Below are positions 4,331-15,787 of a stretch of DNA of 64,000 nucleotides, piece by piece; positions within the stretch are counted from its first letter, which is position 1, and each line of letters starts with the position of its first letter. Below the pieces are notes generated by a model, which saw nothing but the letters and a program-made list of their open reading frames with translations, did not search any database and was not told where the DNA came from. A program made the translations under genes and the position numbers. Source of the DNA: an uncultured Dokdonia sp. (lineage in GTDB: Bacteria > Bacteroidota > Bacteroidia > Flavobacteriales > Flavobacteriaceae); contig CANNDF010000002.1 in NCBI GenBank assembly GCA_947503305.1, positions 1 to 64,000 on the forward strand, in the 5' to 3' direction.

Positions 4331-5617
4331 CTATTTTTTATAAATCGTACCGTTTTTCATCACAAAAGTAACATTCTCCATCGTAGCTATATTTTTTGTA
4401 GGGTCTTGATCTACGGCAATAATATCGGCCAGAGCACCTTCAGAAAGAACCCCTAATTTCCCTTCCATATCCAGTACTTTTGCATTGGTAATAGTAGCCG
4501 ATTGTAGCGAGAACATCTCAGACCAACCGGTTTCAACCATGTAAGCAAATTCTTTTGCATTTTCTCCATGTGGAAATACACCCGCATCTGTTCCAAAGGC
4601 AATGTTGACACCTTCTTCTGCAACCATTTTCATAGTTTGACGTATACCTGCATCTACTTTCATTATTTTAGGGATAATAATATCTGGGTAATATCCAGGA
4701 ATATCTGCTTGTTGTCTTACATATCGCCCAGCAGATAGTGTTGGAACAAGATAAGTATTGTATTGCTTCATTAAGTTTGCGGTTTCTTTATCCATTAAAG
4801 AACCATGCTCAATTGTAGTTACCCCTGCTTTAATAGCTCGTTGCATGCCTTCTATCCCATGAGCGTGAGCAGCAACACTCATTCCATATTCTTTGGCAGT
4901 TTTTACAATCTCGTTTACTTCCTCTTGCGTAAATTGAGGATTAACACCATTTTTACTTACACTCAATACGCCTCCTGTAGCTGTAATTTTTATTAAATCT
5001 GCCCCGTTCTTATAACGTTGTCTTACTGCTTTTCTAGCATCTTCAGGACTATTTATAACACCTTCTGCTGGTCCTGGATCTCCCATGAGGGATTTTTTAT
5101 AACCATTGGTAGGATCTGCATGACCTCCTGTTGTTCCTATTGCTTTTTCGGCAGTAAAAATTCTAGGTCCATGTATAGTTCCTTTATTAATAGCATTGCG
5201 TAAAGATACATTGACACCACTACCTCCTAAATCGCGTACTGTTGTAAAACCAGCCATTAATGTTCGGTTAGCAATTTCAGAAGCAGTATAGGCAACATCG
5301 GCTTCATTTTTGGTAAAAGGCTCAATATAGCGTTTTGGACTTGTCTCTCCTTCTAGATGTACATGCATATCGATAAGCCCTGGCATCACAGTCTTTGAAG
5401 TAAGGTCTATTACTATTTGATCTCCTTTTGCTTGTGTATACCCTTTTTTTACAGACATAATTTTACTCCCTTGAACAGTGATTGTTTGTTCATTAAGGAT
5501 AGTTCCTTTCTGAGTGTCGATGAGTTTGCCACAATGTAATAGGGTAGTCTCTTGAGCCATAGAAGCTATACTCAAAGTTAGTACTACAAGTAGAAATGCT
5601 ATATTTTTCTTTTTCAT
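4331..5617 (-). CDS. secreted amidohydrolase family protein (imidazolonepropionase/prolidase-like)
   Basis: The 428-residue protein has a signal peptide (KKKNIAFLLVVLTLSIASMAQE), so it acts in the periplasm or outside. The metal-dependent hydrolase core shows the HVH pair (MPGLIDMHVHLEGE), a Lys in DLIKITATGGV, His ligands in VAAHAHG and IEHGSLMD, and the catalytic Asp in FGTDAGVFPHG. This set is typical of amidohydrolases annotated as Xaa-Pro dipeptidase-like. The substrate is unknown; a cyclic or acyl-amino acid, or peptide, is likely. It ends 6 bases before the DegT aminotransferase start on the same strand, so the two are probably cotranscribed. Confidence 0.85.
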   Translation of the reverse strand: MKKKNIAFLLVVLTLSIASMAQETTLLHCGKLIDTQKGTILNEQTITVQGSKIMSVKKGYTQAKGDQIVIDLTSKTVMPGLIDMHVHLEGETSPKRYIEPFTKNEADVAYTASEIANRTLMAGFTTVRDLGGSGVNVSLRNAINKGTIHGPRIFTAEKAIGTTGGHADPTNGYKKSLMGDPGPAEGVINSPEDARKAVRQRYKNGADLIKITATGGVLSVSKNGVNPQFTQEEVNEIVKTAKEYGMSVAAHAHGIEGMQRAIKAGVTTIEHGSLMDKETANLMKQYNTYLVPTLSAGRYVRQQADIPGYYPDIIIPKIMKVDAGIRQTMKMVAEEGVNIAFGTDAGVFPHGENAKEFAYMVETGWSEMFSLQSATITNAKVLDMEGKLGVLSEGALADIIAVDQDPTKNIATMENVTFVMKNGTIYKK

Positions 5618-5623
5618 AATGGG

Positions 5624-6757
5624 TTATTTATTTACAAAATCAATAAGTGTTTGTGTGATAAAATCGATTTGATCATCATCAAGTTCGGTATGCATAGGTA
5701 ATGAAATTACATCTTTGGCGAGTTGATTTGTAACTGGAAAATCCTCTTCATTATAACGCTCATCTGCATAGGCTTTTTGACTATGTAATGGGATGGGGTA
5801 GTAAACTCCACAAGGGATTCCTTGTGCGTTTAAGTGAGCTGCAAGAGCATCACGATCTGTATCTTTTACACGCAATGTATATTGATGAAAAACGTGACAA
5901 TCACAGCTATCACATATTGTAGGTGTAATGATCTTTTCATGTGTTGAAAATGCTTTGGAGTATTTGCGAGCTGCATCGCGACGAGCCGAGTTATAGGAGT
6001 CTAGATGTGGAAGTTTTGCTCTAAGAACTGTCGCTTGAATAGAATCTAAACGGCTATTGACACCTACTACATCATGATGGTATCGTTTGTACATCCCGTG
6101 ATTTACAATACCTCGTATAGTATGAGCTAGCCCATCATCATTTGTAAAAATAGCTCCTCCGTCACCATAACACCCCAAATTCTTTGAGGGGAAGAAAGAA
6201 GTTGTCCCTACATCACCTATACCACCGGTTTTAATTTTTTGCCCGTTGCGAGAAGTGTAATCAGACCCGATGCCTTGCGCATTATCTTCAATCACATATA
6301 GATTGTGTTCTTTTGCAAGATCCATAATCGCATCCATATCTGCTGCCATTCCAAAAAGATGTACTGGAACAATCGCTTTGGTTTTTGGGGTAATTGCATT
6401 TTTGATAGCTTCAATATCAATATTAAAATTTACAGGATCTACATCTACTAACACAGGCGTTAACCTCAATAATGCAATCACTTCTACAGTGGCAGCAAAG
6501 GTAAAATCGGCAGTAATGACTTCATCTCCGGGTTCTAGACCTAACCCCATCATAGCAATTTGTAAGGCATCTGTACCATTTGCACAAGGAATCACATGCT
6601 TCACACCTAAGTAATCTTCAAGTTCTTTTTGAAATGCATGAACCTCCGGACCATTAATAAATGCGCTAGATTCTACAACTTCTAATATAGAAGCATCTAC
6701 ACGTTCTTTAATTTTTAGATATTGACCTTTTAGGTCGACCATTTGTATTTTTTTCAT
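5624..6757 (-). CDS. DegT/DnrJ/EryC1/StrS family PLP-dependent sugar aminotransferase
   Basis: The 377-residue product has the full fold of the family that aminates UDP- or dTDP-keto-sugars. Visible motifs are PCANGTDALQIAMMGLGL near residue 60, DADFTFAA, IEDNAQGIGS and the PLP lysine motif TTSFFPSKNLGCYGDGGA. The C-terminal half has NSRLDSIQATVLRAKL and GVYYPIPLHSQ. The closest role would be a WbpE/perosamine-synthase type step in lipopolysaccharide or glycoconjugate sugar synthesis. That fits the divergent neighbour waaA (Kdo transferase). The exact nucleotide sugar cannot be told from sequence. Confidence 0.88.
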   Translation of the reverse strand: MKKIQMVDLKGQYLKIKERVDASILEVVESSAFINGPEVHAFQKELEDYLGVKHVIPCANGTDALQIAMMGLGLEPGDEVITADFTFAATVEVIALLRLTPVLVDVDPVNFNIDIEAIKNAITPKTKAIVPVHLFGMAADMDAIMDLAKEHNLYVIEDNAQGIGSDYTSRNGQKIKTGGIGDVGTTSFFPSKNLGCYGDGGAIFTNDDGLAHTIRGIVNHGMYKRYHHDVVGVNSRLDSIQATVLRAKLPHLDSYNSARRDAARKYSKAFSTHEKIITPTICDSCDCHVFHQYTLRVKDTDRDALAAHLNAQGIPCGVYYPIPLHSQKAYADERYNEEDFPVTNQLAKDVISLPMHTELDDDQIDFITQTLIDFVNK

Positions 6758-6893
6758 AGGTAAATATGCAAAGGCATTTGCCAGTTATTAAGATGAGATC
6801 TTTTAAAACCCTTCTTTTGAAGTTGTAACGAAAATACAAAAACTCCCATCTTTCGACAATCTATTTTAGTACAAAGCGCTATTTTAGCATAGT

Positions 6894-8141
6894 ATGCGTA
6901 GGATCTACACTTTTTTTATATCTCTCGTGGAAGCAGTGTTGCCTCTTGTAGGCATGTTTAGCTCTAAAATGAAGCAATTTGTGATAGGCAGGAAAAACGT
7001 ATATGCCCAGTTACGTGCTATAATTCAACCTACAGACCGTGTGATATGGTTTCATGCAGCCTCTTTAGGAGAATATGAACAGGGAGTACCGGTTATGGAA
7101 GCTATCCAAAAACAATATCCAGCTTATAAAATAGTACTCACTTTTTTTTCACCATCAGGATATGAAGTAAAGAAGAATAACGCTTTCGCGAAAGCAACCG
7201 TATACCTCCCATTAGACACTCCTTCTAATGCTCGACAATTTTTAGATTGTATTCATCCAGAAATAGTGGTTTTTATTAAATATGAATTCTGGCCTAATTA
7301 TCTCACAGAACTTAAACGCAGAAATATTAAAACACTATTACTTTCAGGAGTTTTTAGTGAACGTCAATTGTTCTTTAAGCCCTATGGGAAATGGATGCTG
7401 AAAAGTCTAAAAGCCTTTGATCATTTTTTTGTTCAAGATCAATCATCATTGATAGCAGCTCAAAAACTAAACCTACAGAATGTAACGGTGAGTGGCGATA
7501 CACGATTTGATCGAGTTTCACATCAAATAGAGATGGATAATACCTTGGAATTTGTAGATGATTTTGTAGACAATACTCTATGTATTGTATGTGGTAGTAC
7601 ATGGCCTGAAGACGATAAAATCTTAGTTCCTTTTATTAATCAATCCAATGAAAAAGTTAAATATATCATTGCACCACATCAAATAAAACAAGAAAAGATA
7701 AAAGCACTTCAAGAGCAATTGCAGGTCAGAACAGTACTATTTTCTGAAAAGGCCACCAAAGCTCTTTCTGAATATGATGTGCTTATTATAGATACCATAG
7801 GTCTACTAACCAAAATATATAGCTATGCCTCTATTGCTTATGTAGGGGGTGCTATGGGAGGTACTGGACTACATAATATCTTAGAGCCCGCTACTTTTGG
7901 AGTTCCTATAGTGATAGGAAATATCTTTGAAAAATTTCCTGAAGCTAACCGTTTACAACAATTGGCAGGATTATATGCTGTAAAAAATGAAGATGAATTT
8001 GCAAAAATTTTAAGCAAACTGATTACCGATTCTAAATTTCGTTCACAAACAGGAATGATTGCTGGGCATTTTGTGAACAGCAATACGGGAGCTACACGTA
8101 CCGTTATGGATTATATAAAAGAGATGCATGAAATGGGGTAA
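6894..8141 (+). CDS. waaA: 3-deoxy-D-manno-octulosonic acid (Kdo) transferase, GT30
   Basis: WaaA transfers Kdo from CMP-Kdo to lipid A precursor at the inner membrane. The 415-residue product has the expected N-terminal membrane anchor (IYTFFISLVEAVLPLVGMF) and the acceptor-side motif VIWFHAASLGEYEQG. KYEFWPNYL is conserved, and the donor-side region has VCGSTWPEDD, YVGGAMGGTGLHNILEPATFGVPIVIG. Length is normal. It overlaps the next gene by 14 bases (ATG at 8128, stop at 8139-8141), implying translational coupling. The gene contains one copy of the chromosomal palindrome, read as AFAKA. Confidence 0.93.
   Translation: MRRIYTFFISLVEAVLPLVGMFSSKMKQFVIGRKNVYAQLRAIIQPTDRVIWFHAASLGEYEQGVPVMEAIQKQYPAYKIVLTFFSPSGYEVKKNNAFAKATVYLPLDTPSNARQFLDCIHPEIVVFIKYEFWPNYLTELKRRNIKTLLLSGVFSERQLFFKPYGKWMLKSLKAFDHFFVQDQSSLIAAQKLNLQNVTVSGDTRFDRVSHQIEMDNTLEFVDDFVDNTLCIVCGSTWPEDDKILVPFINQSNEKVKYIIAPHQIKQEKIKALQEQLQVRTVLFSEKATKALSEYDVLIIDTIGLLTKIYSYASIAYVGGAMGGTGLHNILEPATFGVPIVIGNIFEKFPEANRLQQLAGLYAVKNEDEFAKILSKLITDSKFRSQTGMIAGHFVNSNTGATRTVMDYIKEMHEMG
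7182..7195. repeat. perfect palindrome GCTTTCGCGAAAGC (copy 2, inside waaA)
   Basis: It lies within the waaA coding sequence and is read as AFAKA in frame. Confidence 0.95.
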
Positions 8142-8919
8142 ATGGTTTTTTAATCTATTGTGGATTGTAGTTCTTACAATACTTACACAAGTAGGAGGTA
8201 TTTTGTATGCCATCACATTCTTAATTTACAGACGACAACTTATAAAAAGATGGCTGGTATTTACAGGACTATATCTTATATGTACGTTTGTTTTGATTCC
8301 ATATATAGCACCAATTTTTGGAAGAGAAAAGATTAAAACCAACAAGACGATTAAAGTACACATGCTGTTGACGTCTCTTACCAACAGGAATTATGTGGTT
8401 CCAGAGGTAAATAACGTACTCACAAATGTTTCTATTGAGCTTAAGGATAAATACCCAGATCTAGAAATCCATTGTCTTGATGCAAATTTCCCTTTTCTCA
8501 ATAGGTTTCCATTACTACCACACTTAAGTCATGACGATGGGAAAAAACTAGACCTTTCCTTAATCTATAAAAATGAAGAAGAGATTATTACAAATGATAA
8601 ACCATCGGTGAGTGGGTATGGTATTTTTGAAGAACCAAGAACAAAAGAGTATGATCAAATAGAAATTTGTAAATCAAAAGGATATTGGCAGTATGATATA
8701 TCTAAGTATATGACTTTAGGTAAAACAAATACGTCAATTACATTATCTGAAAAAGGGACAACGTTGTTACTAGAGGCTATTCTTACACAATCGTCTATTT
8801 CAAAAGTATTTATAGAGCCTCATGTACGTACGCGATTAGGGATTACTCATGCAAAACTTCGCTATCATGGATGCCAAGCAGTACGACATGATGATCATAT
8901 TCATTTACAAGTAGAATAA
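8128..8919 (+). CDS. membrane-anchored protein with MepA/LAS-type metallopeptidase motifs
   Basis: The 263-residue protein has two N-terminal membrane segments (~7-35 and ~42-63), then a soluble domain. That domain contains H135-x2-G-x3-D142 (HDDGKKLD) and a C-terminal H254-DDHIH259 (VRHDDHIHLQVE). These two motifs match the zinc-binding HxxGxxxD and RHDDHFH of the penicillin-insensitive murein endopeptidase MepA (LAS fold). I infer a membrane-bound, periplasm-facing peptidoglycan DD- or LD-endopeptidase; overall similarity to MepA is otherwise weak, so it may be filed as hypothetical. It overlaps waaA by 14 bases and is presumably coexpressed with this envelope gene. Confidence 0.6.
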   Translation: MKWGKWFFNLLWIVVLTILTQVGGILYAITFLIYRRQLIKRWLVFTGLYLICTFVLIPYIAPIFGREKIKTNKTIKVHMLLTSLTNRNYVVPEVNNVLTNVSIELKDKYPDLEIHCLDANFPFLNRFPLLPHLSHDDGKKLDLSLIYKNEEEIITNDKPSVSGYGIFEEPRTKEYDQIEICKSKGYWQYDISKYMTLGKTNTSITLSEKGTTLLLEAILTQSSISKVFIEPHVRTRLGITHAKLRYHGCQAVRHDDHIHLQVE

Positions 8920-8929
8920 AGAAACCTAA

Positions 8930-9412
8930 TTAAGCAGTAATTTCTTCTTTAGATGCTATAGGAGTCGTTTTCGATTTTTTAAGATTCCAACTAGGTTTAA
9001 AGAGTTGCATAAACGATAAAGTAAGAACCATGGTTGTAGCAAATCCACCAATAGCTACAGAAAAAAGAACAACACCTAAGGTTGTCGTACCTCTCCAAGG
9101 GCCAATTAAATTACCAAGAAACTCAGGAGCAATATTACCCGCATAAATCCCAAAGAATACAGTAAAAATAAGTGTCGCTACAAATCCAGTAACTACTCCT
9201 ATAGAAAAGCCATCTCCATAGGAAAAGGTGTCTCCTTTACGTAATTTATATCCTTTTATAGCCTCATAAATTCCAAAGCCTGTAATAACTCCATTAAATA
9301 AACTGAATAGGGGATTAGTGTGCCATCCTAGCAGTGCAATGACCAAAAAATAACCAATGAGTAACCCGCTAATGGCTATTGCATAGCGGATGGGAAGTGC
9401 AAATTTTGACAT
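8930..9412 (-). CDS. DUF4199-like integral membrane protein
   Basis: The 160-residue protein has about four hydrophobic segments (~9-29, ~35-50, ~70-95, ~108-133) with short loops and a polar C-terminus (KKSKTTPIASKEEITA). The layout, with YKLRKGDTFSYGDGF between helices 2 and 3, resembles the small Bacteroidota DUF4199 family. Its function is unknown. It is convergent with the MepA-like gene, with only 10 bases between the two stops. Confidence 0.6.
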   Translation of the reverse strand: MSKFALPIRYAIAISGLLIGYFLVIALLGWHTNPLFSLFNGVITGFGIYEAIKGYKLRKGDTFSYGDGFSIGVVTGFVATLIFTVFFGIYAGNIAPEFLGNLIGPWRGTTTLGVVLFSVAIGGFATTMVLTLSFMQLFKPSWNLKKSKTTPIASKEEITA

Positions 9413-9488
9413 AACTTTTGAGTTTTAGATATATAAGTTAATTAAAATCAGCGAATTGTATGGTGCTCCCGTTGTTAAATTTTAATAT

Positions 9489-9502
9489 GCTTTCGCGAAA
9501 GC
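9489..9502. repeat. perfect palindrome GCTTTCGCGAAAGC (copy 3)
   Basis: Intergenic, between the DUF4199 gene start and the terminator of the RND efflux operon. Confidence 0.95.
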
Positions 9503-9547
9503 GTTCAAAACTGCATACCTTATTCTATCGTTACACCTTGTAGTAAA

Positions 9548-9577
9548 TTAAAAACGCTGACCCTATAGCCAGCGTTT
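9548..9577 (-). terminator. terminator of the RND efflux operon
   Basis: On the minus strand AAACGCTG-gctataggg-TCAGCGTTTTTAATTT forms an 8-bp stem followed by a T-run, 24 bases past the permease stop. Confidence 0.7.
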
Positions 9578-9600
9578 CTGAATGTATATAATAAAGCTAT

Positions 9601-12600
9601 TTATTCTCCTTCGGGGATAGGATAATTGATAGATTCGTTATCTAATAAATTATTCTCGATAGCATTTGTTAACTCTTCATCATCAACAGGAGTTGCTCCT
9701 TCTTGACTTGGATCTGTAACAGCTGCACCTCTAAAATAAAGCTTAATACGGTATACCATATAGAATAACAATGGCACAATGATTAATGTTAAGAATGTTG
9801 CTATGATCAGTCCGTAGATAACGGCCCAGGCAAGAGGGCCCCAGAAAATCACATTGTCTCCTCCTATATAGATCCCAGGATCAAAACTTTGAAATAAACC
9901 AAAGAAATCAATATTAATACCCACAGCCAGAGGGATTAATCCTAATACGGTGGTAATAGCAGTTAGAATTACAGGACGTAAACGTGCACGCCCTCCTTGA
10001 ACGATTAGTTTGGTTACCTCTTCTTTAGGGAGTAATGCATTGTCTGGTAAATCTAACTCTACAAGTCTTCTGTCTATAAGAAGTTGTGTATAGTCTAGTA
10101 GTACCACTCCGTTATTAACAACAATTCCTGCAAGAGAGATAATTCCCATCATCGTCATCATAATTACAAAAGGAGCTCCCGTGATTAGGATTCCTCCAAA
10201 CACACCTATAAAACTCAGGAAAATAGCAATCATAATGATCATAGGTTTTGAGATAGAACTAAACTGAAAAATAAGTAAGAAGAAAATCAAACCTAAACCA
10301 GCAAAGAAAGCGCCCATTAAGAAGGCCATTTGTTTGTTTTGTTCTTCTATCTGTCCTGTATAATTTACTTTGATTGTTTCTGGAACAAGATCAGCTGCTT
10401 CGCCAGATTCCATTTCTGCTTGCACTTGACTGACCACAGCCCCTGCATCTGTGTAACCAGGCGCTAAAGCAGAGTATACAGTTACCACACGTCTTGTGTC
10501 ACGATGCTTGATTGCACTAAAAGACGATGTGTTTTTTGTTTTAGTAACAGCGGCTACAGGAATTTCTTTAATCTGCCCAGAAGCCTGATCTCTAAAGGTA
10601 ATATTCTGATTAAATAGTGCAGAGTTATCATAACGTTGCTCTTCATTAAAACGGACATAGATATCGTAATCTTCTCCATCTTTTTTATAGACACCTGCTT
10701 TATCTCCAAAAATAGAACGACGCAATTGATTTCCGACCATACCCGCTGCAACACCAAGTTCCCCTGCTTTTTGACGATCTACGACAACTTGTGTTCCAGG
10801 TTTTCCTTTGTTTACATCTATCTTAAGCTCATCAATACCGGCAATATTTTTGGTGTTGATATAGTTACGCATAGCCTCTGCAGCAGTAATAAGCTCATCG
10901 TAGTCTTTTCCTTCTAATTCAATATTGATGGGATATCCAGCAGGAGGGCCTACGGCATCTTTTTCTACAGAAATAGCAATACCGGGATAGATTCCTTTGA
11001 TCGCTTCTTGTACTTTAGATCGTAGCTCTTCACTATCGGCGCCATTACGGAATTTATATTCTCGCATGGTGGCTGTAATCTTAGATCGGTGTGGCATTTC
11101 GGCACTACTACCTCCATCCGTTTGAGGATTTCCAGCGCCTTCTCCTACCTGAGATACAGAAGTTTCAACTAAGAAGTTATAATCTTGTCCTTCCAGATAG
11201 GAAGCATCGTTAAAGACTTTAAAAACACGACGTTCTATCTCCTTAGTAATTTCATTTGTTTTATTAATAGCAGTACCTTCTGGATACTCTACATATACAA
11301 TAATCTGATTAGGAGTATTGTCTGGGAAAAATTCTATTTTGGTACGTTGTGCCCCTACAGAAGCTCCAAAAGCCATAAACGTTAGTATAAGCATTAAGAA
11401 AATCCCACCTACAAACAAACCTGGTTTCCAGCCACGTATAGCCCAACTCAAGAACCCCTGGTATTTACGTTCTAACCATGTCAAGAATCTGCGTTGGAAG
11501 GTCTCTGTAGCACCCATTAATACATAACGATAGATCCACATAAATACAATCGTTACAAGGACTAAGGCTCCTAAACCACTCACGGCTCCTCCTGTAAGTA
11601 AAATAAGGATTCCTATAGGAAGCATTACAAGTGATGTTCTGATTAAAAATTTACGGGTAAGAGGTGTCTCTGTTACTTTCATAAACTTAGATACCAACAT
11701 TGAGTTGATAAAAATGGCTACAAATAGAGAAGATCCTAATACGACAGAAAGTGTGATTGGGAAGTAAATCATAAACTGTCCCATAACTCCAGGCCATGTT
11801 CCTAAAGGAACAAACGCTGCTACTGTTGTTAATGTAGAAATGATAATAGGGAATGCAATTTCGCCTATTCCTTTTTTTGCAGCCTGAATACGAGACATAC
11901 CCTCTTCATCCATCAAACGGTATACATTCTCTACGACCACAATTCCATTATCTACCAGCATTCCAAGTCCCATAATTAAAGCAAAAAGGATCATGGTATT
12001 CATGGTGTATCCTAGTAGATTAAGAATCATAAAACTCATAAACATAGACATAGGAATAGCAAACCCTACAAAAAGCGCATTTCTAAATCCTAAGAAAAAC
12101 ATCAATACACCTACAACGAGAATGATTCCGAAGATAATGTTGTTTACAAGATCATTTACTTGGTTTACTGTTTTTTGACTTTGATCATTTGCTACAGAAA
12201 TTTTTAAATCCGGAGGGAATACATTCTCTTTTGCATCGGCTATGAGAAGGTTTATTTTATCAACAGCTTCAATCATATTTTTCCCAGAACGTTTTTTTAC
12301 GTCCAGCATCACAACACTTTGACTTACTTCTTCGTCATCGACACTTTCCCCCTTCTCTAACGTAAGATCTCTTGCATATGTAGTTTTATCTTCTTCTCCA
12401 AAACTCACTACGGCAATATCCTTTAGATATACAGCGCCATTTTCAGACTTTACAACAAAATCATTAAGGTCCTTAGGGTCTTCTATCTCTCCAGTAATAC
12501 GTATGGTACGACGCTGTCCACTGGTAACGAGATTTCCAGCAGAAAGGGTCAAGTTTTCATTGCGAATGGTATTTAAGATGTCATCAAAACTGATTTTTGC

Positions 12601-13230
12601 AGCCATCATTTTATATACATCCACGGCAACTTGAATCTCCTTCTCTTGAGCACCACGAATATCTGCAGCCTTGATCTCTTTAAGCGCTTCTATCTCATCT
12701 TGCAAATACTCTGCATACTCTTTAAGTTGTTCTACTTTGTAATCTCCAGAGATGTTTACATTAAGAATAGGTGTTTCTTCAGAAATACTTAAATCAAAAA
12801 CATTAGGTTCTACTTTAGCACCATTAAAGGTAGGCCAGTCTTCATTAGAAGTTTCGCTATCTACTTCGTCTTTGACTTTTTGCTTTGCTGCAGCAACAGT
12901 AAAAGATTCTTCAAACTCTACGGTGATAATGGCATAATCTTCTTGTGCAGTAGAGATAATTTCTACTACGCCTGAGATATTTTGTAGTTTATCTTCCAGA
13001 GGATCTACAATAAGACGTTCTATGTCTTCTGCTGTATTTCCAGGATATGGAGTAGAGATATAGATTTTAGTCTCATTAATTTCTGGAAAATTCTCTCTCG
13101 GCATCCCAAAATAGGCACCTAGTCCTAGCACAAGAAAGAGTGCCATGAGTACATAAATAATCGTTGGATTATCTATTGCCCAACTAGATAGGGCAAATTC
13201 CTTATCGACTTTTTTCTTCTTGGCGTTCAT
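9601..13230 (-). CDS. RND efflux transporter permease subunit (AcrB/HAE1-like)
   Basis: The 1209-residue inner-membrane pump has the RND layout: N-terminal helix (NPTIIYVLMALFLVLGLGAYF), PN/PC porter repeats, and a membrane block around 365-580 with GLGMLVDNGIVVVENVYRLMDE. A second periplasmic domain (YPINIELEGKDYDELI) precedes a second block with IISLAGIVVNNGVVLLDYTQLL. It carries an extra central membrane stretch and an acidic cytosolic tail of ~50 residues, making it longer than AcrB. It should export drugs, detergents or metabolites by proton antiport with the adaptor gene 4 bases upstream and the TolC gene of the same operon. Confidence 0.93.
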   Translation of the reverse strand: MNAKKKKVDKEFALSSWAIDNPTIIYVLMALFLVLGLGAYFGMPRENFPEINETKIYISTPYPGNTAEDIERLIVDPLEDKLQNISGVVEIISTAQEDYAIITVEFEESFTVAAAKQKVKDEVDSETSNEDWPTFNGAKVEPNVFDLSISEETPILNVNISGDYKVEQLKEYAEYLQDEIEALKEIKAADIRGAQEKEIQVAVDVYKMMAAKISFDDILNTIRNENLTLSAGNLVTSGQRRTIRITGEIEDPKDLNDFVVKSENGAVYLKDIAVVSFGEEDKTTYARDLTLEKGESVDDEEVSQSVVMLDVKKRSGKNMIEAVDKINLLIADAKENVFPPDLKISVANDQSQKTVNQVNDLVNNIIFGIILVVGVLMFFLGFRNALFVGFAIPMSMFMSFMILNLLGYTMNTMILFALIMGLGMLVDNGIVVVENVYRLMDEEGMSRIQAAKKGIGEIAFPIIISTLTTVAAFVPLGTWPGVMGQFMIYFPITLSVVLGSSLFVAIFINSMLVSKFMKVTETPLTRKFLIRTSLVMLPIGILILLTGGAVSGLGALVLVTIVFMWIYRYVLMGATETFQRRFLTWLERKYQGFLSWAIRGWKPGLFVGGIFLMLILTFMAFGASVGAQRTKIEFFPDNTPNQIIVYVEYPEGTAINKTNEITKEIERRVFKVFNDASYLEGQDYNFLVETSVSQVGEGAGNPQTDGGSSAEMPHRSKITATMREYKFRNGADSEELRSKVQEAIKGIYPGIAISVEKDAVGPPAGYPINIELEGKDYDELITAAEAMRNYINTKNIAGIDELKIDVNKGKPGTQVVVDRQKAGELGVAAGMVGNQLRRSIFGDKAGVYKKDGEDYDIYVRFNEEQRYDNSALFNQNITFRDQASGQIKEIPVAAVTKTKNTSSFSAIKHRDTRRVVTVYSALAPGYTDAGAVVSQVQAEMESGEAADLVPETIKVNYTGQIEEQNKQMAFLMGAFFAGLGLIFFLLIFQFSSISKPMIIMIAIFLSFIGVFGGILITGAPFVIMMTMMGIISLAGIVVNNGVVLLDYTQLLIDRRLVELDLPDNALLPKEEVTKLIVQGGRARLRPVILTAITTVLGLIPLAVGINIDFFGLFQSFDPGIYIGGDNVIFWGPLAWAVIYGLIIATFLTLIIVPLLFYMVYRIKLYFRGAAVTDPSQEGATPVDDEELTNAIENNLLDNESINYPIPEGE

Positions 13231-13234
13231 ATGA

Positions 13235-14410
13235 TTAGTAATTTAAAATTTTTACTTCTTGATCATTTTTTACACTTCTTGCTCCTTCAATAATAATGCG
13301 ATCTCCATTGCTAAGCCCTTCTAAGATTTCGATCATATCTCCTTGTGATTTTCCTGTCTTAACAACCTGACGTTTGGCAATAGCGATATTTTTTTCGGCA
13401 TCCGCTTTCGCGAAAGCGGTATATACATACTGATCTCCTGTTGAATTTTCATTAATAACATTAAGTGGAATCATAATCGCATTTTCTGCTGTATAGTCAT
13501 TTATAGAAAGTCGTGCTGTAAGATTAGGTTTTACTTTTCCACCTTGACTGGGTACATCTACCTCTACTGTAAAGCTACGATTGGAAGGATTGATGTAATT
13601 TCCTGTCTGACGTACTTTTGAGTCTATAGTTTCTCCAAGTACAGGAAGTTCTACACTTACCTTTTTTCCAGGGACCACACTCGTGAGGTAGCTTTCTGGC
13701 ACCTCTGCAGATACGTACATATTGCTGAGGTTTACAATCCTAAAAACGGCTTGCCCTGGAGAGACAACAGTCCCTTGGTCTGTAATGACATCATCGATGA
13801 CTCCTGAAAAAGGAGCACGTATCGTTGTTTTTCCTAATTGGCTTTTTAATTGTTTTACTGCATTTTCTGACGATTCGTACTGGGACTTGGTCTGTAAATA
13901 CTGGATCTCAGAACCTATATTCTGTTCCCACAAACGTTTTTGACGCTCAAAAGTCGTTTTGGCTAGTGCAGCTTGAGATTCCAGCTGAGCTACTTGACTA
14001 CTTAAGCCTCCATCATCTATACGTGCTAAGGTCTGCCCTTTGGAAACACGTTGCCCTTCTTTTACATATACGTTAGTAAGGGTACCTTGATATTCAGGAT
14101 AGATGACTACATTTTGTTTAGTCTCAACATTTCCTTGGACCTCTATATAATGTTTAAATAGAGTGTCTTTTACGGTCATAGCGGTTACTAAAGTTTCATT
14201 TTTAGTACTGTCATTTTTCTTAAGAACTTCATCTAGTTGCGCTACTTGTGCATTAAGGGCAGTAATTTCTGCTTTAATTGCAGTTTTTTTAGCTTTAAGT
14301 TCGTCAATATTTCCTTTTTCAATAATACTTTCAACAGATTGAGATCCTTTATCTCCACCACAGGAGGCAAATAGAATGGCTGTGAATACGATGTAAATTG
14401 TGTGTCTCAT
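13235..14410 (-). CDS. RND efflux periplasmic adaptor subunit (membrane fusion protein)
   Basis: The 391-residue lipoprotein has a lipobox near residue 17 (FTAILFASCGG). A long coiled-coil hairpin (~30-65 and ~135-190) and a lipoyl/barrel-sandwich domain split around it follow (EGQRVSKGQTLARIDDGG, GKTTIRAPFSGVIDDVI). Beta-barrel and membrane-proximal domains complete it. It bridges the permease encoded downstream and the TolC protein encoded upstream. A copy of the chromosomal palindrome encodes AFAKA in the C-terminal domain (TAFAKADAEK). Confidence 0.92.
   Translation of the reverse strand: MRHTIYIVFTAILFASCGGDKGSQSVESIIEKGNIDELKAKKTAIKAEITALNAQVAQLDEVLKKNDSTKNETLVTAMTVKDTLFKHYIEVQGNVETKQNVVIYPEYQGTLTNVYVKEGQRVSKGQTLARIDDGGLSSQVAQLESQAALAKTTFERQKRLWEQNIGSEIQYLQTKSQYESSENAVKQLKSQLGKTTIRAPFSGVIDDVITDQGTVVSPGQAVFRIVNLSNMYVSAEVPESYLTSVVPGKKVSVELPVLGETIDSKVRQTGNYINPSNRSFTVEVDVPSQGGKVKPNLTARLSINDYTAENAIMIPLNVINENSTGDQYVYTAFAKADAEKNIAIAKRQVVKTGKSQGDMIEILEGLSNGDRIIIEGARSVKNDQEVKILNY
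13404..13417. repeat. perfect palindrome GCTTTCGCGAAAGC (copy 4, in efflux adaptor gene)
   Basis: The symmetry extends to 18 bp (ccgctttcgcgaaagcgg). It is read on the minus strand as AFAKA. Confidence 0.95.
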
Positions 14411-14437
14411 TTCTTTTTGTTTATGCGGTTGTGTTAT

Positions 14438-15787
14438 TTAGTTTCGTGTATTTCTGTAATCGGGTGTATTTAAAATAGTTTCCAGCTCGGCTTTAGTGGT
14501 AATCATATTTAGCATTGCCTGGAGTAATTGATCTTGTGTCGTATAGAGTTGTGTCTGTGCTTGACGCAACTCAAAACTTGTTGCAATTCCTTCACGGAAT
14601 TTCACTTGATTTTTTTGCTCTATACGCTTTGCAAGGTCTAGATTGCTTTGACTTGTATTGTAAGTGTCTATAGCAAGTTCATGATCGCTTTTGGCGCGTT
14701 CAAAATCTAATGTAATTTGCTGCTGTGTTTCTTCCATTTGAGTTTCGGCTTGATCTAGAGCTATTTTTGCCTGCTGAGTTCTGGCACTTCGCGCTCCTGA
14801 ACTAAAAATTGGAACATCTAGCGTAAAACCTAATATTGAAGAGGCAAACCATTGTTGATCACTATCAAAAAAGTCAAACCGATCTCGTCCTGCCGATGTT
14901 CCAAAGTTGATAAAGCCTCGTAAGCTTGGTAAAGCACGGCTTCGTTCTAGTTTTAATTCTAGACTGCGTTGCTCTATAAGATTGGATGCAATTTTATAAT
15001 CTATATTTTGCTCGACATTTGGGGTTGTATCTACAAGTCCTAACCCTGGTATGGCAAGAGATTCTAATGTGTCCGTAAGTACTATATCTGTATTGACATC
15101 TATGCCTATCGCAAGGTTAAGTAATTGAATTGCGATCTTTTCTAAGCGAACAGCATTTTCTTTTTGATTAAGTAATTGACTGTATGTGATTTGGAGTTGT
15201 TCTGCATCTTCTTCTTCTCCTAATCCGTTTTCTACAATGATTTTTGTTTCATCCAGATTTTTCTTTACAGTAACAAGATTACTATCCACAATAGCGATAC
15301 TTTCTTGTGCAACAAGGACTCCTCCATAGGCATTTATAACACCTTTTCGTACTTCTAATTGTGTTTTTTCATTAGCGTTTTCTGAAAAGTCCAGGAAAGC
15401 TTTTGCCGCTTGAAGACCTACTAAATAAGAGCCGTCAAATATAAGCTGGTTAAGGGTTGCTGTGGCAGAAGCATTCTGAGCAGTTCCAAAAACAACAGGG
15501 GCGAAAGTCCCAGGCTCTCCTCCGAAAAATTCGGCAGGAATAAAGGATGTCGGTTGTCGTAGTTGGTTTTGATAATCTACAACAGCACTAATTTGAGGTA
15601 AACCAGAGGCTGTAGTCTCCCATTTTTGTTTAATGGCCTTTGCAATATCGCGACGGGCATTGATAGCAGTATAATTGCTATCTATTGCAAAACTTATTGC
15701 CTCTTCTAAAGAGAAGCTTTGCTTTTCTTGTGCTTGACTCAACATGCTAGATACAAGTAGTATGAGTATACTAAGTTTTTTGATCAT
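14438..15787 (-). CDS. TolC family outer-membrane efflux protein
   Basis: The 449-residue exported protein has a signal peptide (LSILILLVSSMLSQAQE) and two homologous halves rich in long helices, as in TolC. Typical features are SFSLEEAISFAIDSNYTAINARRDI at the start and the repeat KFREGIATSFELRQAQTQLY near the end. It forms the outer-membrane channel of the RND pump encoded downstream. Its ATG shares one base with the tetR stop (TAATG), indicating translational coupling. Confidence 0.92.
   Translation of the reverse strand: MIKKLSILILLVSSMLSQAQEKQSFSLEEAISFAIDSNYTAINARRDIAKAIKQKWETTASGLPQISAVVDYQNQLRQPTSFIPAEFFGGEPGTFAPVVFGTAQNASATATLNQLIFDGSYLVGLQAAKAFLDFSENANEKTQLEVRKGVINAYGGVLVAQESIAIVDSNLVTVKKNLDETKIIVENGLGEEEDAEQLQITYSQLLNQKENAVRLEKIAIQLLNLAIGIDVNTDIVLTDTLESLAIPGLGLVDTTPNVEQNIDYKIASNLIEQRSLELKLERSRALPSLRGFINFGTSAGRDRFDFFDSDQQWFASSILGFTLDVPIFSSGARSARTQQAKIALDQAETQMEETQQQITLDFERAKSDHELAIDTYNTSQSNLDLAKRIEQKNQVKFREGIATSFELRQAQTQLYTTQDQLLQAMLNMITTKAELETILNTPDYRNTRN

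Follow-up and report, generated by a model that had tools for sequence, protein, structure and literature searches.

We found that a 64,000-nucleotide stretch of DNA (the window) from a 4.26 Mb genome of an uncultured Dokdonia sp. carries a gene, which we name lasM, for a predicted membrane-anchored peptidase with the LAS zinc fold; the nearest named relatives of its product also come from Dokdonia. The best explanation, which we consider likely, is that LasM is an accessory, MepA-like peptidoglycan endopeptidase of the inner membrane, and that its gene has spread horizontally and is not a lipopolysaccharide gene. The M74-related LAS fold is practically certain. An active zinc peptidase is very probable from the sequence, and a peptidoglycan cross-link endopeptidase, by analogy with MepA, is a reasonably probable reading. 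Computation shows the fold and the homology, the conservation of the active site, purifying selection, the distribution and the structure of the cassettes; the zinc, the periplasmic side and the substrate are inferred. The features are listed in Table 1.

Table 1. Position of lasM, its neighbour waaA and the predicted protein features in the window
Feature	Position	Strand	Evidence
waaA, Kdo transferase; upstream of lasM, lineage-specific neighbour	6894..8141	+	Pfam PF04413, E=2.6e-46
waaA/lasM overlap, 14 bases	8128..8141	+	
lasM (name coined here), predicted membrane-anchored M74/MepA-like LAS zinc peptidase, 263 aa, ATG start	8128..8919	+	
Transmembrane segment 1, residues ~6-34; Q21 and G24 invariant, T20 and G23 near-invariant	8143..8229	+	hydrophobicity, model, alignment
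K/R-rich loop joining the helices, predicted cytoplasmic	8230..8241	+	charge distribution
Transmembrane segment 2, residues ~38-64; F45 and Y49 invariant	8239..8319	+	model, alignment
Zinc motif 1, H132-x2-H135-x2-G138-x3-D142 (MepA H110, H113, G116, D120)	8521..8553	+	
C181, invariant; proposed disulfide partner C249	8668..8670	+	alignment
E230-P231 in the 'F-[IL]-E-P-H' strand-turn, collinear with MepA 'IFVNP'	8815..8820	+	
C249, invariant; proposed disulfide partner C181	8872..8874	+	alignment
Zinc motif 2, R253-H254-D-D-H257-I-H259 (MepA H206, H209, H211)	8884..8904	+	

The homology of LasM is seen by profile and fold methods only, since searches of Pfam, NCBIfam and the PDB and with phmmer, each using the single sequence, gave no significant match. 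The gene had been expected to escape annotation pipelines, which agrees with this result and with the label 'hypothetical protein' on three plasmid homologues. Pfam M74 (PF03411, gathering cut-off 25 bits) did not match the window protein; scanned singly, 18 of 23 homologues matched it weakly (best E 1.9e-5). Where bit scores of matching homologues were read they were 14-23 (L010, 23.4 bits), under the cut-off. A family profile searched against the PDB found MepA (1TZP) at E ~2, collinear around the motifs. Profile matches to the staphylococcal surface protein G/E-domain (E 0.03) were judged spurious, being unsupported by the fold search. By hhalign the family matched MepA alone weakly, and an alignment of eight M74 proteins with E=3.3e-7 and a probability of 93%, collinear across both zinc motifs.

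This was further supported by structure prediction. An AlphaFold2 model from 67 sequences reached pLDDT 94.5 and pTM 0.89 with no residue below 70; a first AlphaFold model, from 23 sequences, had pLDDT 85 and a weak stretch at 124-131, and with both models MepA was the top fold match in the PDB. Foldseek listed the MepA structures 1TZP/1U10 at E 8e-7 to 6e-6 (prob 1.00) and nothing else below 0.001, the next being Hedgehog, another LAS member, at E ~0.02. Together with the hhalign result and six shared active-site positions, this makes the MepA/LAS reading of the initial annotation stronger than it was originally stated. The structural match is partial (TM 0.44-0.52, 13-15% identity). In the model the moderate TM-score probably comes in part from the membrane hairpin and from a stretch (145-205) without a good partner in MepA, and the substrate pocket may be unlike that of MepA. 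We regard the family as a divergent, membrane-anchored branch related to M74 and do not file it as an M74 member, because it falls below the Pfam cut-off and is not soluble, and judging by the catalytic features that can be computed LasM looks as if it works like M74.

The two zinc motifs proposed initially, HDDGKKLD and RHDDHIH, were located at H135-D142 and R253-H259, and MepA H110 and H209, absent from that proposal, likewise have counterparts in H132 and H257. All eight aligned M74 proteins keep H110, H113, G116, D120, H206, H209 and H211 (MepA numbering). The equivalent LasM residues H132, H135, G138, D142, H254, H257 and H259 are invariant, with no loss of a ligand residue, in 106 distinct homologues, a set gathered mostly by patterns including part of motif 2, so that this invariance is partly built in. 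The unbiased figure comes from whole-protein searches of 151 genomes of the family and 18 of the genus, where every full-length relative keeps both motifs, which are therefore not due to chance. The general LAS superfamily features, H-x6-D and H-x-H on the LAS core, are also present. The waaA-linked lasM copies are under purifying selection, with pairwise dN/dS well below 1 (e.g. dN 0.11/dS 0.85).

The two N-terminal membrane helices suggested at the outset correspond to hydrophobic segments at residues ~6-34 and ~38-66 that are helical in the AlphaFold model (H2-20/H23-33 and H38-64), and the hairpin residues Q21, G24, F45 and Y49 are kept by all 106 aligned homologues. The inter-helix loop region has on average 5.6 K+R vs. 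1.8 before the first segment and is the higher of the two in 105 of the 106. By the positive-inside rule this K+R-rich loop would be cytoplasmic and the catalytic domain periplasmic. The charge distribution and the conserved cysteine pair thus point to inner-membrane anchoring with the catalytic domain on the periplasmic side. A C181-C249 disulfide would be the natural reading of the invariant pair, and in 73 of the 106 homologues the catalytic domain has no further cysteines. Other invariant residues specific to the family are R87, Y89, L117-D118, F121-P122-F123 and R245.

Like LasM, E. coli MepA (penicillin-insensitive murein endopeptidase, M74) has the LAS fold with H-x2-H-x2-G-x3-D and H-x2-H-x-H, in a collinear order that also takes in the strand leading into the 'h-h-[NDE]-P' turn, although the two proteins share only ~19% identity. 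MepA is a soluble protein made with a signal peptide, whereas LasM and its aligned homologues have a two-helix membrane hairpin, and the cysteine-rich C-terminal tail of MepA is missing from LasM, which has its one invariant pair elsewhere. Two M74-like proteins from other genomes of the phylum (L122 and L123) form a bridge between MepA and the LasM family, because both pass the Pfam M74 cut-off and share the motifs. They resemble LasM in an N-terminal hydrophobic segment, in H-x2-H-x2-G-x3-D and in RHDEHYH at motif 2, but apparently have a single N-terminal helix, lack the TQxGG hairpin and are distinct in sequence. The Sonic Hedgehog N-domain and the bacterial Hedgehogs (bacHh) also share the LAS zinc fold, H-x6-D and H-x-H with LasM, but the E-value of the Hedgehog fold match is worse than that of MepA by about four orders of magnitude, and the context of motif 2 differs. 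Another membrane-bound comparison is E. coli MepM, whose family is M23/LytM and not M74. MepM is anchored in the inner membrane, as predicted for LasM, without the two-helix hairpin. It is a peptidoglycan endopeptidase with an N-terminus predicted to be transmembrane (PMC7516022), and N-terminal transmembrane segments are also carried by some bacHh of Rhizobium and Bradyrhizobium (PMC6027127).

The initial annotation had tied lasM to lipopolysaccharide synthesis through its upstream neighbour waaA. NCBIfam Kdo transferase models matched the WaaA protein, all under the model cut-offs, and the 14-base overlap between the genes is exact by coordinates. Overlaps of 4-14 bases are found in five other linked genomes, so that co-expression is likely in the lineage of the window, where lasM is probably co-transcribed with waaA. 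The functional tie itself was not supported as a general one. In 14 genomes of the genus the waaA locus was read, and waaA always follows the same divergent aminotransferase-like gene; lasM lies directly behind it in six of them, forming one subclade, and in the remaining eight it is either elsewhere (three) or absent (five). No waaA was found at the loci examined outside the linked subclade, and lasM has no conserved neighbour, as its neighbours differ from clade to clade, nor is any toxin, immunity, defence or peptidoglycan gene conservedly linked to its homologues. The survey of waaA neighbourhoods therefore indicates a local arrangement of one subclade, and waaA coupling as a conserved trait is ruled out by genomes that have waaA without lasM or with lasM elsewhere. 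We consider it very improbable that co-transcription reflects a functional coupling of LasM to lipopolysaccharide synthesis; linkage of the two genes was seen in no other lineage examined. At L017-L022, in one clade, the reading frame upstream of the homologue has a C-terminus like what is presumably an M3 peptidyl-dipeptidase (Dcp-like).

Whole-genome searches found lasM homologues in 23 of the 151 genomes of the family, including that of the window, and, within the genus, in 11 of the 18; a weak match (L024, E 7e-4) was discarded as an unrelated protein. At L079 the homologue seems to lack an intact reading frame, as a piece of just 93 aa was called; this may be a pseudogene or reflect an assembly error. 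The lasM tree, with bootstrap support that is not fully settled, mixes genera: the genus of the window appears in at least three places, and copies of Leeuwenhoekiella, Hanstruepera and Aestuariivivens lie close to each other, with short branches between them. Horizontal transfer is indicated by this tree together with the patchy distribution. Homologues with 34-38% identity, annotated 'hypothetical protein', are present on plasmids of the Alphaproteobacteria Rhodovulum, Rhodobacter and Agrobacterium. A phage collection gave no match; on one IMG/VR contig (L125) the homologue lies ~3 kb from a phage-integrase-like reading frame, and the frames read there include no obvious structural genes of a phage.

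Many flavobacterial copies of lasM sit in rows of short reading frames on the same strand, and at L045 and L104 the frames are separated by imperfect palindromic repeats. At L045, lasM is bounded by GTTAGCCAC before it and by GTGGCTAAC just past its stop codon, where an attC-like element begins. These ends fit the integron rule, by which the start of a cassette and the outer arm of its attC are complementary. A GTT core together with such an attC was found at L045, L004/L056, L047, L059, L066 and L112, and at L103/L104 the cassette ends were recognised by pattern and by eye. Complementary 9-base ends occur at 7 of 119 loci (L004 and L056 being one genome that is present twice), vs. 1.2 expected from shuffles. 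A 22-base half of attC (≤4 mismatches) occurs 43 times on the lasM strand in 80 loci, and not once on the opposite strand of the loci listed or in shuffled sequence. Two attC-like elements give good folds as single strands (z -5.7 and -6.7), and an Rfam scan of five cassette loci gave no match. Taken together, lasM homologues are integron-type cassettes with attC-like ends in at least seven flavobacteria. Beside the lasM of the window there is no attC-like site; the window has no more matches to the attC half than expected by chance, and they all lie away from the gene.

At L059:539-1669 and L104:2733-3950 the array is preceded by an integron-integrase-like tyrosine recombinase of 376-405 aa with an N-terminal extension. 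Both pass or nearly pass NCBIfam NF040815 and are below TIGR02249, so that the name integron integrase is likely, not proven, from the sequence. Integron finders may overlook recombinases below the TIGR02249 cut-off. A further recombinase of this kind, with an N-terminal extension, lies by an attC-like array at G458:C3:716756-717547; L059, L104 and G458 represent the Flavobacteriaceae Aestuariivivens, Lacinutrix and Aestuariibaculum. Elsewhere in the genome of the window (L159 ~4600-15200, G000:C5 ~362,100-372,700) there are about ten short same-strand reading frames with attC-like repeats between them, a 203-bp stretch that recurs near both sides, and a nearest recombinase like an ordinary XerD. 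This row is probably an integrase-less cassette cluster. Integrons in Bacteroidota are known but rarely reported (PMC9024848, PMC8618304), and we found no published report of an M74-like peptidase as an integron cassette in a literature search covering mostly papers outside subscription.

In the mechanism we propose, the two N-terminal helices would anchor LasM in the inner membrane with its catalytic domain in the periplasm. A zinc ion would be held by H135, D142 and H259, in the positions of H113, D120 and H211, the metal ligands of MepA, with H132, H254 and H257 around it, and the zinc-activated water would cut meso-diaminopimelate peptidoglycan cross-links beside the membrane, as in MepA. 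A peptidoglycan role is supported by an Agrobacterium plasmid (L142:6004-7543), where the homologue has type I secretion genes on one side and on the other a lytic transglycosylase gene, which lies directly downstream of it. Against the endopeptidase reading count the lack of a conserved peptidoglycan neighbourhood and the partial structural match to MepA. Elsewhere in the genome of the window, eight reading frames carry an M23 peptidase domain, and because such peptidase genes are already there the role of lasM is not obviously needed, which suggests that it is accessory rather than housekeeping.

The LAS fold is also that of VanY- and LdcB-type carboxypeptidases, and LasM might instead be a membrane-bound, VanY-like D,D- or L,D-carboxypeptidase that trims stem peptides or lipid-linked precursors and not cross-links, a function for which anchoring beside precursor synthesis would be fitting. 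A VanY-like protein (4JID/4MPH) did appear in the fold search, although weakly (E ~0.3), and the fold and profile matches to MepA are far stronger. In addition, the catalytic Glu motif of M15 (E-x2-H or related, before the last His ligand) is absent, and LasM has H254-D-D-H257-I-H259 in its place, the M74 form H-x2-H-x-H, and we regard a carboxypeptidase as unlikely. LAS enzymes of bacteria act mostly on peptidoglycan, which argues against a different substrate, a peptide or protein of the periplasm or membrane that LasM would process or degrade, e.g. in competition or defence. This reading is suited by the patchy distribution, the horizontal transfer and the plasmid and cassette locations, the conserved polar residues T20 and Q21 in the first helix suggest a membrane partner, and the family-specific invariant residues may shape another pocket. 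However, no toxin, immunity or defence gene is consistently linked to lasM, and we find a non-peptidoglycan substrate improbable as well. The preferred reading is the MepA-like endopeptidase.

Our results correct the attractive but unsupported idea that lasM is tied to lipopolysaccharide synthesis, and show a protein in the window that is invisible to Pfam and NCBIfam. With LasM, a peptidase family of which mainly the soluble proteobacterial MepA is known gains a branch that is bound to the membrane and horizontally mobile. We offer as a speculative idea that this unnamed family of inner-membrane M74-like peptidases owes its spread among marine Flavobacteriia as integron cassettes, and on plasmids of Alphaproteobacteria, to a selectable advantage that it confers, e.g. 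tolerance to cell-wall-directed antagonists, through local cutting of cross-links steered by the conserved membrane hairpin. The findings suggest that integrons of marine flavobacteria exchange cell-wall cutting among other traits.
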